The notes under the pieces: model-generated | The model's database searches: none | What the model was told of the DNA's origin: nothing | What the model saw: only the letters and a program-made list of their open reading frames with translations | Assembly: GCA_026987255.1 (NCBI GenBank) | Contig: JALSNA010000191.1 | Coordinates: 1 to 13,695, forward strand | Direction: 5' to 3' | Source: Hyphomicrobiales bacterium | Lineage (GTDB): Bacteria; Pseudomonadota; Alphaproteobacteria; Rhizobiales; Aestuariivirgaceae | DNA length: 13,695 nucleotides | Translations under genes and position numbers: made by a program | Shown here: piece by piece, positions 1-7,800 of the stretch | How positions within the stretch are numbered: position 1 is the stretch's first letter | Layout: every line of letters begins with the position of its first letter

Positions 1-80
1 GGGGGAGCGGGCCGGCGCGACGCACTTCCGTGCAAAATGCGCCCGCGGGCCGGCGCGACGCGCCTCAGCGCAAAATGATA

Positions 81-142
81 GGCCCATGCCCCCGCCCAAC
101 CGTCTTGCCTATAATCTGGGCGGTTGGGTGGGGGCGTGGGCC
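81..142. repeat. Long palindrome L1 of the array
   Basis: Arms 81-101 and 122-142 pair over 21 consecutive positions. Two of the pairs (87-136 and 94-129) are G-U if the + strand is transcribed; all others are Watson-Crick. Pairing can continue inward for about four more pairs. The loop contains TATAAT at 110-115. The right arm includes the GGGCC that starts the next S element. Confidence 0.9.
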
Positions 143-171
143 GGAGCGACGCACCTCCGTGCACAAAGAAA

Positions 172-234
172 GGCTCGAGCCCCCTCCCATCCACCTTGCG
201 TATAATCCTGGGTGGATGGGAGGGGGCGCGGGCC
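172..234. repeat. Long palindrome L2 of the array
   Basis: Arms 172-195 and 211-234 pair at 23 of 24 positions; the only mismatch is 178/228, and 175-231 is a G-U pair. The 15-nt loop contains TATAAT at 201-206. The arm sequence differs clearly from L1 and from L3/L4, yet complementarity is kept. Confidence 0.9.
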
Positions 235-263
235 GGAGCGACGCGCCTCAGCGCACAAAAACA

Positions 264-325
264 GGCCCACTCCCCCTCCCGGACGCCTCACCTATCCTCT
301 GGGTGGCCGGGAGGGGGCGTGGGCC
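264..325. repeat. Long palindrome L3 of the array
   Basis: Arms 264-282 and 307-325 pair at 18 of 19 positions, with a mismatch at 271/318. Some further pairing is possible inward of 284/305. The loop shares the CTGGG end seen in the other L loops, but has CTATCCTCT in place of TATAATCT. Confidence 0.9.
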
Positions 326-354
326 GGTGCGACGCACCTTCGTGCATAAAGAAA

Positions 355-416
355 GGCCCACTCCCCCTCCCGGATGCCTCCCCCACAATCTGGGCGGCCG
401 GGAGGGGGAGAGGGCC
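355..416. repeat. Long palindrome L4 of the array
   Basis: Arms 355-373 and 398-416 pair at 18 of 19 positions, with an A/A mismatch at 360/411. The left arm is identical to that of L3, while the right arm differs at two positions, one of which repairs the L3 mismatch. The loop ends in ACAATCTGGG, related to the loops of L1 and L2. Confidence 0.9.
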
Positions 417-496
417 GGTGCGCCGCACTTCCGTGCAAAAAAGCGGGCGCGGGCCGGCGCGACGCACCTCCGTGCACAAAGCCCCCCGCGCTTTCA

Positions 497-1402
497 TCAG
501 GCCGGGAAGGTGCGGGGGCGTTTCTGGGCCAGCATGACACCGGCCAGGGTGAGAGCGGCAAAGAGCATCTGCACGGAATTGAGCCGCTCGCCCAGCCACA
601 GCCAGCTGATGAGAACGGCCAGCACCGGGATCAGGTTGAGCATGACCGAGGCGCGCGCCGCCGTCAGGCGCGAGATCCCGGCGTTGTAGAGCCCATAGGC
701 CAGCACCGTCACGCCGATGCCCAGATAGAGCAGCAATCCGCCATTGCGCGGCGTGCTCAGAACCGCCCGGTCCGGGCCGAACAGATCGAAGGCCCCGGGC
801 AGGAAGAAGACCGCGCCCGTCATCATCTGGATGCCGGTGAGCAGCCAGATGTCATAGCGCCTGCTCATGCGCTTGACGATCAGCATGTATCCGGTGGCCG
901 CCACCATGGCCAGGAACTCCATGAAGTTGCCCAGCCACGGGTGCGGCGCGGACAGATCGGGGCCTCCAGCCAGTGTCAGGCCGATGACCCCGGCGATGGA
1001 GAGCAAGAGCCCGGCGCTCATGTTGCGGCTCATCGGCTCATGATAGAAGATCACCCCGCCCAGCGCCGCCAGCAGCGGAAAGACCGCCACCACCATGCCC
1101 GCCTGCGAGGCCGAGGTCAGGGTCAGGGCGTGCATCTCCAGGGAGAAATACAGGCATGGCTCGAACCCGGCCAGCGCCAGCAGCCACCAGATATCGCCCT
1201 TGCGCCGCTCGGCGCGCTTCCAGCCACGCGCCACGAAGGGCAAAAGGATGATCGAGGCGATGATCATGCGCGCCCAGATCATGGCCATCGGGTGCATGAC
1301 GCCGAGCAGCGCCTTCATCACCGGAAAGGCGCTGGCCCACAGCAGGACAGAGCCGAAAACGGCCAGCAGAACCGCCGCCTCGCCCACCGGCCGCACCGTC
1401 AT
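497..1402 (-). CDS. EamA-family (DMT superfamily) membrane transporter
   Basis: Encodes a 301-residue, almost wholly hydrophobic protein with about ten predicted membrane segments in two halves, the usual length and layout of EamA/DMT exporters. Seen near the start is the family pattern LLWASAFPVMKALL. Later comes the second-half sequence ARASVMLNLIPVLAVLISWL, followed by LGERL; this 'pro-val-leu ... GE' pattern is typical of the second EamA repeat. The substrate cannot be read from sequence; relatives export amino acids and other metabolites or are uncharacterised. I chose the ATG at 1402 because AGGGAG lies five nt upstream. An in-frame ATG at 1420 (GGGAG about 11 nt upstream) and a TTG at 1444 are alternatives. 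The gene lies directly below the terminator that ends dnaJ, so it should be transcribed separately. Its 3' end abuts the hairpin array, which would form its 3' UTR if transcription continues. Confidence 0.88.
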   Translation of the reverse strand: MTVRPVGEAAVLLAVFGSVLLWASAFPVMKALLGVMHPMAMIWARMIIASIILLPFVARGWKRAERRKGDIWWLLALAGFEPCLYFSLEMHALTLTSASQAGMVVAVFPLLAALGGVIFYHEPMSRNMSAGLLLSIAGVIGLTLAGGPDLSAPHPWLGNFMEFLAMVAATGYMLIVKRMSRRYDIWLLTGIQMMTGAVFFLPGAFDLFGPDRAVLSTPRNGGLLLYLGIGVTVLAYGLYNAGISRLTAARASVMLNLIPVLAVLISWLWLGERLNSVQMLFAALTLAGVMLAQKRPRTFPA

Positions 1403-1442
1403 CTGCGCTCCCTGACTCATGCCGCCGAAATCTCCCGTAAAC

Positions 1443-1480
1443 AAAAAAGCCCCGGCACGGTGGGCGTGCCAGGGATTTTT
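1443..1480 (-). terminator. Rho-independent terminator of dnaJ (potentially bidirectional)
   Basis: GGCACG and CGTGCC form a 6-bp stem, extended by CCC/GGG with one bulged base. It is flanked by A6 at 1443-1448 and T5 at 1476-1480. Read on the minus strand it gives a GC-rich hairpin followed by TTTTTT about 110 nt after the dnaJ stop. It could also work on the + strand, but no + strand gene ends here. Confidence 0.85.
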
Positions 1481-1590
1481 GTCAACGGGACTTTTGTGCC
1501 ATCCGCCTGCTTCGAGTCCTGCGCCTCTCTTTCAGCAACAGGAAAGCGGGTCCATTTGTTCGCGGCAGGATGGAGCAGCTGGAAGCCCTT

Positions 1591-2876: not shown

Positions 2877-4796
2877 TTACGACTTCTTGTCGTCATCGAC
2901 TTCCTCGAAGTCGGCATCGACGACATCGTCGCCGCCGGCCTCGGCCGAAGCGCTCTGCTCGCCGCCACCTGCGGAGGCCGCGGCTTCGGCCTGCTCGGCC
3001 TTGTAGGCCGCCTCGCCGATCTTCATGGCCGCCTGGGCCAGCTCGGTGGTCTTGGCCTTGATGGCTTCCGCATCATCGCCCTCGGAGGCCTTCTTGAGCT
3101 CTTCGATGGCCGCCTCGACGGCCTTCTTGTCCTCCTCGGAGACCTTGTCGCCCATGTCGGCGAGGGTCTTTTCGGTCGAGTGGATCAGGCCCTCGGCCTG
3201 GTTCTTCGCCTCGATCAGCTCCTTGCGCTTGCGGTCTTCCTCCGCGTGCGCCTCGGCCTCCTTGACCATCCTCTCGACCTCCTCGTCGGACAGCCCGCCG
3301 GAGGCCTGGATCTTGATCTGCTGCTCCTTGCCGGTGGCCTTGTCCTTGGCCGAGACATGGACGATGCCATTGGCGTCGATGTCGAAGGTCACCTCGATCT
3401 GCGGCACGCCGCGCGGCGCCGGCGGGATGCCCACCAGGTCGAACTGGCCGAGCAGCTTGTTGTGGGCGGCAATCTCGCGCTCGCCCTGGAAGACCCGGAT
3501 GGTCACCGCGTTCTGGTTGTCTTCCGCCGTGGAGAAGATCTGGCTCTTCTTGGTCGGGATGGTGGTGTTGCGGTCGATCAGCCGGGTGAACACGCCGCCC
3601 AGCGTCTCGATGCCCAGGCTCAGCGGCGTCACGTCGAGCAACAGCACGTCCTTGACATCGCCGGTCAGCACGCCGCCCTGGATGGCCGCGCCCATGGCCA
3701 CCACCTCGTCCGGGTTCACGCCCTTGTGCGGCTCCTTGCCGAAGAACTCCTTGACCGTCTCGATGACCTTGGGCATGCGCGTCTGGCCACCAACCAGGAT
3801 CACCTCGTCGATGTCCTTGGCAGACAGGCCGGCGTCCTTCAGGGCCTTCTTGCACGGCTCGATGGAGCGCTCGATGAGATCGTCCACCAGGCTTTCCAGC
3901 TTGGCGCGGGTCAGCTTGACCTGCAGATGCTTCGGCCCGGAGGCATCGGCGGTGATGAACGGCAGGTTGACCTCCGTCTGGGTGGAGGAGGACAGCTCGA
4001 TCTTGGCCTTCTCGGCCGCCTCCTTGAGCCTTTGCAGGGCCAGCTTGTCTTCGCGCAGGTCGATGCCCTGCTCCTGCTTGAAGGTATCGGCCAGGTAATC
4101 GACAATGCGCATGTCGAAGTCCTCGCCGCCCAGGAAGGTGTCGCCATTGGTGGATTTCACCTCGAAGACGCCATCGCCGATCTCCAGGATGGAGATGTCG
4201 AAGGTGCCGCCGCCCAGGTCATAGACCGCGATGGTGCCCGCATCCTTCTTGTCCAGGCCATAGGCAAGCGCTGCCGCCGTCGGCTCGTTGATGATGCGCG
4301 GCACGTCCAGCCCCGCGATCTTGCCGGCGTCCTTGGTGGCCTGGCGCTGGGAGTCGTTGAAGTAGGCCGGAACGGTGATGATCGCCTGCTTGATGTCCTC
4401 GCTCAGGGCGCGCTCGGCGGTTTCCTTCATCTTGGTGAGGATGAAGGCGGAGATCTGCGCCGGCGAATATTTCTTGCCGCGCGCCTCCACCCAGGCATCG
4501 CCATTGTCCGCCTTGACCACCTTGTAGGGCACCAGCTCGATGTGCTTTTTCACGATCGGGTCATCGAAGCGCCGTCCGATCAGGCGCTTGATGGCGAAGA
4601 TGGTGTTCTCCGGGTTGGTGACCGCCTGGCGCTTGGCGGGGATGCCCACCAGCACCTCGCCCTCGTCGGTGAAGGCGACGATGGAGGGCGTGGTGCGCGC
4701 GCCCTCGGCGTTTTCCAGAACCTTGGCGTTCTTGCCATCCATGACCGCCACGCACGAGTTCGTGGTGCCAAGGTCAATGCCGATAATCTTGCCCAT
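2877..4796 (-). CDS. dnaK: Molecular chaperone DnaK (Hsp70)
   Basis: ATP-dependent chaperone for nascent and stress-damaged proteins, working with DnaJ and GrpE in the cytoplasm; grpE is not in this window. The 639-residue length is typical. The N-terminal ATPase domain shows IDLGTTNS at 7-14, the [11 protein letters not shown] segment around 170-180 and DLGGGTFD at 193-200. It is followed by the linker [13 protein letters not shown], the beta substrate-binding domain, a charged helical lid and an acidic tail rich in D/E ending DDDKKS. The start is fixed by the conserved [10 protein letters not shown] and by AAGGAGG nine nt upstream. The gene heads dnaK-dnaJ. A leader of about 150 nt runs back to an RpoH-type promoter at 4954-4985 and contains hairpins at 4902-4930 and over the ribosome binding site. 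A long open frame on the opposite strand is a compositional shadow. Confidence 0.99.
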
Positions 4797-4901: not shown

Positions 4902-4930
4902 ATCCGGCCCCGGATCAATCCGTGCCGGAT
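4902..4930. other. Hairpin in the dnaK leader
   Basis: ATCCGGC (4902-4908) pairs with GCCGGAT (4924-4930). Inside, CGGAT (4911-4915) pairs with ATCCG (4918-4922). The result is a 12-pair stem with a small internal loop. It lies in the dnaK 5' leader, about 25 nt below the predicted -10 element. It could be an RNA structure or a protein-binding dyad. Confidence 0.5.
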
Positions 4931-4953
4931 TGCCCAAGGCCCCTGTTCGGGTG

Positions 4954-4985
4954 CTTATATAGGTATGGCAAAAAAGCCCATCAAG
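4954..4985 (-). promoter_or_regulatory. RpoH (sigma-32)-type heat-shock promoter of dnaK
   Basis: On the minus strand the -35 CTTG is at 4985-4982. After 18 nt comes CCTATATAAG at 4963-4954. This fits in full the alphaproteobacterial heat-shock consensus as I recall it, CTTG-N17/18-CYTATNTNNG, described for groE and dnaK operons. The predicted transcript start near 4947 leaves a leader of about 150 nt. The -35 is only 18 bp from the alkB start codon, so the two genes share this promoter region. Confidence 0.8.
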
Positions 4986-5002
4986 CGCGCGCGGGAAAAT
5001 AA

Positions 5003-5635
5003 ATGACGGAAATTTCATCCCCTGACTGGCCACAAGGCTTGCGGCTTTTTCCCGCCGCCCTGGATGCGGTGGCGCAGGCGGAGCTGCTGGACGCGGTGGT
5101 GGAGCTGATAGGCGAAGCGCCCTTCTTCACCCCGCGCATGCCGCGCTGGGGGCGGCCCTTTTCGGTGCGCATGAGCAATTTCGGCCCCCTGGGCTGGGTT
5201 TCGGACATCTCCGGCTACCGCTACCAGCGCCATCATCCGGAGACGGACAGGCCCTGGCCGCCCATGCCGCAAGCCCTGCTGGAACTGTGGGACACTTTCG
5301 CCCGCTGGCCGGCGCCGCCGCAGGCCGCCCTGGTCAACCATTACCGCCCCGGGGCGCGCATGAGCCTGCATGTGGACCGCGACGAAAGGGACCTGCGCGC
5401 CCCCATCCTGTCCATTTCACTGGGCGATGACGCCTTGTTCCGCATCGGCGGGCCGCAAAGGCGCGATCCCACCTGCTCGTTGCGCCTGCGCGCGGGCGAC
5501 ATATTGCTCATGGCCGGGGCCGCGCGGCGCTGTCATCACGGCATCGACCGCATCTATCCGGGCACAGCCAGATTGCCGCGCGCCATCGGCGAGGGGCGCA
5601 TCAACATCACCCTGCGGCGGGTGGACAAGGGCTGA
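5003..5635 (+). CDS. alkB: DNA oxidative demethylase AlkB
   Basis: Fe(II)/2-oxoglutarate dioxygenase that removes methyl groups (1-methyladenine, 3-methylcytosine) from alkylated single-stranded DNA and RNA. The 210-residue protein matches the normal family length. Seen are the iron ligands H123 and D125 in SLHVDRDE, preceded by NHYRPGARM, and the distal H179 in CHHGID. The 2-oxoglutarate and substrate signature RINITLR is at 199-205. The sequence RDLRAPILSISLGDDALFRIGG closely follows E. coli AlkB. No ada or other Ada-regulon gene is adjacent. It is divergent from dnaK and starts 18 bp from its -35 element. I see only a poor ribosome binding site (GGGAAAATAA), so translation may be weak or start from a short leader. 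A possible -10 is the AT-rich TTATATAG at 4955-4962. The gene converges on manC with 23 nt between stop codons. Confidence 0.95.
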   Translation: MTEISSPDWPQGLRLFPAALDAVAQAELLDAVVELIGEAPFFTPRMPRWGRPFSVRMSNFGPLGWVSDISGYRYQRHHPETDRPWPPMPQALLELWDTFARWPAPPQAALVNHYRPGARMSLHVDRDERDLRAPILSISLGDDALFRIGGPQRRDPTCSLRLRAGDILLMAGAARRCHHGIDRIYPGTARLPRAIGEGRINITLRRVDKG

Positions 5636-7317: not shown

Positions 7318-7749
7318 CTATTTCTTTTCCTGCGCCAGGCGCTCCTTGAGCATGCCATCGACGATTTCACAGGTGCGCTCCAGGTCGGAAATGGCCTCTT
7401 CCAGCTCCACCCGCTGCTGGCGCAGGGCCACCAGGCGTTCGGCCATCTTGCGCGAGGCCAGCTTGAGCTGCGCCAGCTGGCCGTCCTTGAGATTGTACAG
7501 ATCAAGCATTTCCTTGATCTCGGCCAGGGTGAAACCGACCTTCTTGCCGCGCAGGATCAGTTTCAGACGCGCCCGGTCACGGTAATTGAAAATGCGCGTC
7601 CAGCCACGGCGCGAAGGGTGCAAGAGCCCTTTTTGCTCATAGAAGCGCAAGGCGCGCGGCGTGACATTGAACTCGCGGCACAACTGGGTGATGGAATAGG
7701 TTTCGCTGCGCCGGTCTTTCTTGTCCTTGGTTTCGTGCCCCTCTGCCAT
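7318..7749 (-). CDS. MerR-family transcriptional regulator
   Basis: A 143-residue regulator. The N-terminal winged helix-turn-helix spans about residues 17-85. Key features are YSITQLCREFNVTPRALRFYEQKGLL, followed by TRIFNYRDRARLKLILRGKKVGFTLAEIKEML, the MerR pattern. A long coiled coil for dimerisation follows at about 88-140. There is no cluster of metal-binding cysteines (only two Cys), so it is not a classic metal sensor. The wording of the DNA-binding domain resembles the LiuR-like group of proteobacterial MerR regulators, but no branched-chain amino acid catabolic gene is adjacent and the target is unknown. The start at 7749 is preceded by AAGGAG nine nt upstream. The in-frame ATG at 7806 has no ribosome binding site and would add a charged tail unlike the family. 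Promoter and operator-like repeats lie at 7801-7906, suggesting autoregulation. Confidence 0.9.
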   Translation of the reverse strand: MAEGHETKDKKDRRSETYSITQLCREFNVTPRALRFYEQKGLLHPSRRGWTRIFNYRDRARLKLILRGKKVGFTLAEIKEMLDLYNLKDGQLAQLKLASRKMAERLVALRQQRVELEEAISDLERTCEIVDGMLKERLAQEKK

Positions 7750-7800
7750 GGTTTTCAACTCCTTTTCGGGGCCGCCGGTCCTTTTTCCGGTTTCTTGTCT

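Follow-up and report, generated by a model that had tools for sequence, protein, structure and literature searches.

The first 482 nucleotides of the window, as we call the whole stretch of 13,695 nucleotides analysed here, carry an array of alternating small (S) and long (L) hairpins. The array is probably one copy of a dispersed, non-autonomous family of palindromes that resembles REP sequences and BIMEs in its make-up, behaves like the Rickettsia palindromic elements (RPEs), and would spread and grow along the lines proposed below. Its elements are multicopy and dispersed, differ between species, include in-frame insertions in genes, and keep their arms paired. To the known repeats it adds a Hyphomicrobiales-linked, REP/RPE-like family with insertion differences between species and two linked hairpin modules.

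The array in the window and its copies in the genome

At positions 1-482 the array is made up of seven S and four L units in alternation (Table 1). All S units read on the + strand and follow one another at 38, 91, 92, 91, 91 and 39 nt; an earlier note, made from the letters of this DNA, had given the same counts and spacings. The L palindromes, about 62 nt each, lie in the interval between S2 and S6, and the S consensus is GGGCCGG-n-GCGACGC-r-C-y-TC-m-G-y-GCA. Because the 3' arm of each L has as its end the GGGCC head of the following S, the two modules overlap. Five of the S stems are GCAC/GTGC, and the change to GCGC/GCGC in two copies was confirmed. Pairing of the L arms, previously put at 21/21, 23/24, 18/19 and 18/19 with different arm lengths, holds under a 24-pair stem definition in which G-T counts as paired (Table 1). 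The remark that the reading frame is not conserved also fits, because most S spacings are not multiples of three. The window begins within the array, at a contig end, and the array's leftward extent lies beyond the contig; at the other side, 20 nt separate the end of S7 from the stop codon (at 497) of a convergent EamA gene.

Table 1. Units of the hairpin array and the adjoining gene, in window positions.
Feature	Positions	Strand	Description
S1 hairpin	9..34	+	GCAC/GTGC type
S2 hairpin	47..72	+	GCGC/GCGC type
L1 palindrome	81..142	+	AACC/GGTT arms, 24/24 pairs
S3 hairpin	138..163	+	GCAC/GTGC type
L2 palindrome	172..234	+	ATCC/GGAT arms, 23/24 pairs
S4 hairpin	230..255	+	GCGC/GCGC type
L3 palindrome	264..325	+	GGAC/GGCC arms, 22/24 pairs
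S5 hairpin	321..346	+	GCAC/GTGC type
L4 palindrome	355..416	+	GGAT/GGCC arms, 22/24 pairs
S6 hairpin	412..437	+	GCAC/GTGC type
S7 hairpin	451..476	+	GCAC/GTGC type, final unit
EamA-family transporter gene	497..1444	-	3' end towards array

A single S-L unit folds with z = -5.96 against dinucleotide shuffles (200 shuffles, none as stable), and the 482-nt array with z of -11.9 on the + strand and -10.7 on the - strand (100 dinucleotide shuffles each, none as stable). Since the array is stable on both strands, as is expected of palindromes, the fold is silent on which strand would be the working one. Rfam returned 64 matches for window positions 1-1500 up to E=10, mostly to miRNA families and none reaching the gathering score. 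A terminator and promoter scan of positions 1-600 found neither, with a terminator loop limit of 3-8 nt that may exclude L, and the plasmid and phage collections gave no match. The four L core strings were not matched in the texts of the literature searched, and the Thermopetrobacter literature searched holds no paper on repeats by title. The claim that no named family matches therefore stands for Rfam over positions 1-1500 and for the L core strings in the literature, although the kind itself is known, from REP sequences and BIMEs and from the Rickettsia palindromic elements.

The own genome (2,496,469 bases in 529 contigs) contains the array sequence by BLAST at 62 places or more, with 40 of 70 candidates scored, the window included and some counted on both strands. 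A covariance model built from an alignment of 33 own-genome S-L monomers (A1) gave at least 135 matches, with both strands counted and many of them one element read twice. Allowing up to three mismatches to the S pattern, we counted 76 S units in the 41 own contigs examined, including the window; neighbouring S less than 130 nt apart (46 pairs) were spaced at 89-92 nt in 33 cases and at 30-40 nt in 13. Of the 38 contigs that bear elements, 29 have one no more than 150 nt from an end, so that assembly was probably interrupted at the repeats and the true copy number is then higher. In some own arrays, inspected by eye, a third hairpin, GTGCGCAAA-CCCC-TTTGCGCAC, replaces the S stem behind the usual GGGCCGGnGCGA head. 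At L043:105-394, three L units alternate with another small hairpin (GAGAAAATCCCCCGCGGATTTTCTC) that is not S, the head being still GGGCCGGAGCGA.

Pairing and covariation of the L arms

Across the 28 pairs of alignment A1, 94.4% of cells are paired, against 89.7% in shuffles; 63 cells carry a two-sided change, against 28.9; and covariation scores 0.226 where shuffles give 0.144. All three values were out of reach of every one of 500 shuffles. Seven pairs show a two-sided change and 20 further pair types occur, neither number being above that of the shuffles. Within the own genome, two-sided changes are mostly three linked arm types plus mosaics: at columns 53-54/80-81, 29 of the 33 monomers are AA/TT, GG/CC or AT/AT and the other 4 are mosaic. 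Linked types are found in S as well, GCAC-nTCC-GTGC accounting for 43 of the 76 units and GCGC-nTCA-GCGC for 23. Because the own-genome changes are those of linked L arm and S types, what had been read in the window as compensation is mostly subfamily membership.

Across species, the covariation of L is strong. The cross-species alignment A4 (119 distinct rows), which was fitted to the model and in which some elements entered twice, once per strand, has 94.6% of cells paired, two-sided changes in 20 of 28 pairs, and a covariation score of 0.326, compared with 0.126 in shuffles and at most 0.056 in slid controls. Removal of overlaps from both-strand matches kept 76 of 116 and 73 of 121 elements in two sets, the second built from 52 chosen loci; even in the de-duplicated table of this second set (73 elements), three or more Watson-Crick types persist at several L pairs. 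The proposal that pairing is kept while sequence drifts is thus upheld across species and loses most of its force in the window. On the + strand of the A1 L stems, G-U outnumbers A-C by 52 to 12 cells and by 11 to 5 columns, which hints that + is the strand that folds, the cells not being independent and 7 of the 12 A-C cells falling in two mosaic-affected columns.

Placement and insertion differences between genomes

The model finds matches in 8 of 10 genomes of the same genus, in 3 of 13 from the other genera of its family and in 2 of 16 from elsewhere in the order. With stricter filters and a threshold of E<=1e-6, a sample of the order yielded 16 matching genomes out of 297, among them the own genome and two congeners. 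These counts are lower bounds, and absences hold at the search depth used (the best 150 candidates at most in the own genome, 103 in the genus and family survey and 13 in the order sample). With the own-genome matches, they answer the model search of genome and relatives suggested in the earlier note, which had named a lack of further copies among the outcomes that would speak against it. Thermopetrobacter HyVt-550 and Hyphomicrobiales MAGs are among the named records with matches. At the other-genus loci inspected (L069-L073) the L palindrome is solitary, without S, and in two of them (L069 and L070) it is lengthened outward, by eye, to GCACCGGCCC...GGGCCGGTGC. We infer that the S head is this outer arm of L. 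Two loci from a pattern scan, in records titled Gemmatimonadetes (L032, 19.7 bits) and Acidobacteria (L037, 22.5 bits), fitted the model weakly and were taken as chance. At L064, about positions 970-1181, an element directly adjoins a putative tRNA gene, as judged by eye.

Placement was counted on the fetched loci with a retrained gene caller, whose strands and frames agree with those of three window genes verified with Pfam and with our reading of the remaining window ORFs, and whose gene starts may be off. Arrays or elements lie inside called genes in 0 of 41 cases in the own genome, 3 of 26 in G003 and 1 of 21 in G004, the G003 figures coming from 20 regions and those of G004 from 21 loci chosen among the better-scoring matches. 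Both flanks were seen in 49 cases, of which 25 have tandem neighbours, 14 convergent and 10 divergent ones; over every pair of adjacent genes in these loci, the split is 262 tandem, 49 convergent and 48 divergent. Flanking genes read in the S direction in 40 of 55 cases in the own genome, 20 of 41 in G003 and 18 of 37 in G004. Further in-gene candidates at L010, L050, L043, L106 and L172 were judged by eye to be gene-calling artefacts. Two G003 elements, L106:2726-2830 and 3784-3848, are situated between phage-like or gene-transfer-agent genes, with neighbours that match Pfam Phage_phiJL001_Gp84_N and GTA_TIM.

The EamA locus itself offers an empty site. G009 (L081) and G005 (L082), whose EamA proteins are the closest to that of the window (79% and 75% identity), carry DnaJ, EamA and then a convergent regulator-like gene, recognised by reading its sequence, with a gap between the last two of 35 nt in G009 and 25 nt in G005 and no element; both genomes have 0 covariance-model matches at the search depth used. 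In G002 (L083) an EamA homologue is likewise followed by a similar regulator-like gene, and three genomes of the genus have no EamA match. The comparison is one-sided, as a search of the 41 own contigs did not turn up the regulator-like gene and the far flank of the array lies beyond the contig.

Insertions within genes can be followed through orthologs. A G003 gene (L104) encodes a RACo-type protein by Pfam (RACo_C_ter, Raco_middle, RACo_linker and Fer2) that is interrupted around residues 536-580 by an S-L-S insert. The insert is common to G003 and G008 and is lacking in seven other orthologs, in a comparison that left out G006 (partial match only) and G009 (no match). Between G003 and G008, 2 of its 24 stem pairs are changed on both sides with pairing kept, and the unpaired stem positions number three in G003 and two in G008; the insert peptide is, by eye, more diverged than its flanks. 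Such coding inserts let one watch a palindrome keep much of its pairing as the peptide it encodes diverges. A second G003 gene (L102) encodes a vWA-domain protein by Pfam, which we take to be NorD-like, with two inserts. Site 1 is occupied in G003 only, being empty in seven orthologs and outside the reach of the G008 contig; site 2 is occupied in G003 and G004 and empty in seven orthologs, G008 among them. G001 and G006, with matches of only 33-39% (one of 23%), were left out of this comparison. The RACo and vWA reading frames stay open through the inserts, which lie mid-ORF, and no target-site duplications were established for them. The divergence of the in-gene copies raises the possibility that the family has ceased to move.

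These observations also bear on other explanations of the hairpins. It is unlikely, in our judgement, that they are mainly RNA elements of the + (S) strand (attenuators, processing sites or stabilisers of mRNA 3' ends) and owe their retention to that role. The strong covariation across species and the excess of G-U on the + strand would suit it, as would the direction of the own-genome flanking genes (binomial p 0.001, with flanks that are not independent), but there is no such direction bias in G003 or G004, the EamA gene reads the window array antisense, element sites vary from species to species, the in-gene copies are placed mid-ORF, and the G-U excess is far weaker by columns. We favour even less the idea that each L is an intrinsic terminator of the - strand followed by a T-rich tract, which we hold to be very improbable. 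The - strand linker (up to 8 nt) after L does average 81% T, with a minimum of 62.5%, over the 33 monomers, and the EamA gene is directed into the window array on that strand. Yet the scan of positions 1-600, within its loop limit, found no terminator; only 15 of the 55 own flanking genes read that way, 8 of them ending into the array; solitary L palindromes at L069, L070, L072 and L073 have no T tract; and copies occur within genes.

That the arrays are an artefact of a fragmented assembly has a negligible chance of being right. The crowding of elements at contig ends would agree with it, but real repeats themselves yield contig ends at repeats, and S-L units are present in independently assembled named MAGs and within longer contigs.

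Likeness to known repeats and a proposed route of spread

Di Nocera et al. (2013, PMC3733652) distinguish two REP superfamilies, tagged CGTC and GTAG. CGTC REPs predominate in alpha-Proteobacteria, apparently without a dedicated transposase, and are defined by an unpaired CGTC at one end, a stem of 8-9 bp with A-T first pairs and a loop of 4-5 nt; they are mostly head-to-head dimers, with head-to-tail arrangements negligible. The paper also places some REPs within genes, R. conorii RPE-4 and RPE-6 included, describes large clusters of Neisseria and Wolbachia elements, and leaves open how CGTC REPs spread without a transposase. As in the superfamilies so described, S-L elements are multicopy, mostly intergenic hairpins with some in genes. 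By that definition of CGTC REPs, only the 4-nt loop of S fits: the S stem has 4 bp (GCRC/GYGC) preceded on the + strand by GAC, not CGTC, the L stems have about 24 bp, and the S-L units run head to tail in a single orientation. The S-L consensus is also without GTAG, and Y1_Tnp (PF01797, RAYT-type), the only transposase family searched for, was found in none of 11 genus genomes by a search that detected it in 5 of 14 control genomes, which sets the elements apart from the GTAG/RAYT REPs and from REPINs.

Composite palindromic arrays of regular spacing between genes recall BIMEs and REPINs; in BIMEs, however, REPs alternate in orientation, whereas here two different hairpins alternate and all seven S share one orientation. 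With the Rickettsia palindromic elements, as described in PMC5656822 and PMC3733652, the family shares palindromes in frame within alphaproteobacterial protein genes, and the RACo and vWA genes of G003, G008 and G004 hold in-frame insertions without counterpart in orthologs, as is typical of RPEs. Unlike RPEs, the S-L elements are mostly intergenic, form tandem arrays and occur in Hyphomicrobiales-linked genomes; the likeness drawn here is one of insertion behaviour. We have not filed them in a REP superfamily because the defining tags are absent, though the workings are alike; the best reading of the sequences is that they are probably of the REP/RPE kind, new in their two linked hairpins and one-orientation arrays.

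If the array is indeed one copy of such a dispersed palindrome family, its history would have begun with a solitary L, sometimes with the outer arm GGGCCGGTGC, which was joined by a small hairpin S beginning with that arm. Placement and the one syntenic locus compared show that the S-L unit lies mostly between genes, and the orthologs show that it occasionally lies in frame within them. Arrays may lengthen by adding units head to tail, through local duplication or recombination: mean identity is 0.831 within arrays and 0.811 between them, a value as high arising in 142 of 5000 permutations, a small excess that, together with the mosaic arms, weakly suggests such growth. To judge from the insertion patterns, mobility would be provided in trans, through an enzyme that reads the hairpin or through a recombination route. 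Pairing may be retained because the hairpin is needed for spreading, because one arm or copy is corrected from another, or because the transcript has a function, three possibilities that the present data do not separate. A bolder and rather doubtful version makes the family a palindromic DNA parasite of the genus that spreads, enters ORFs in frame and assembles its two hairpins into ordered arrays with no Y1 transposase, by a route so far undescribed, for example hairpin-templated single-strand insertion, while arm-to-arm correction keeps its arms paired. Because no Y1 transposase was found, the family offers a natural system for asking how transposase-less REPs spread and why their arms stay paired.

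Other palindromes accompany some copies. One that resembles a CGTC REP (GGATCCCCGC..GCGGGGATGACG) lies at L015:352-377 on the - strand and at L019:35-60 on the + strand, about 20 nt ahead of the first S in both of these own-genome arrays, which have the left flank in common. Further long palindromes near S, distantly related or unrelated to L by eye, are present at L048 (about 4920-5010) and L054 (about 7730-7770).
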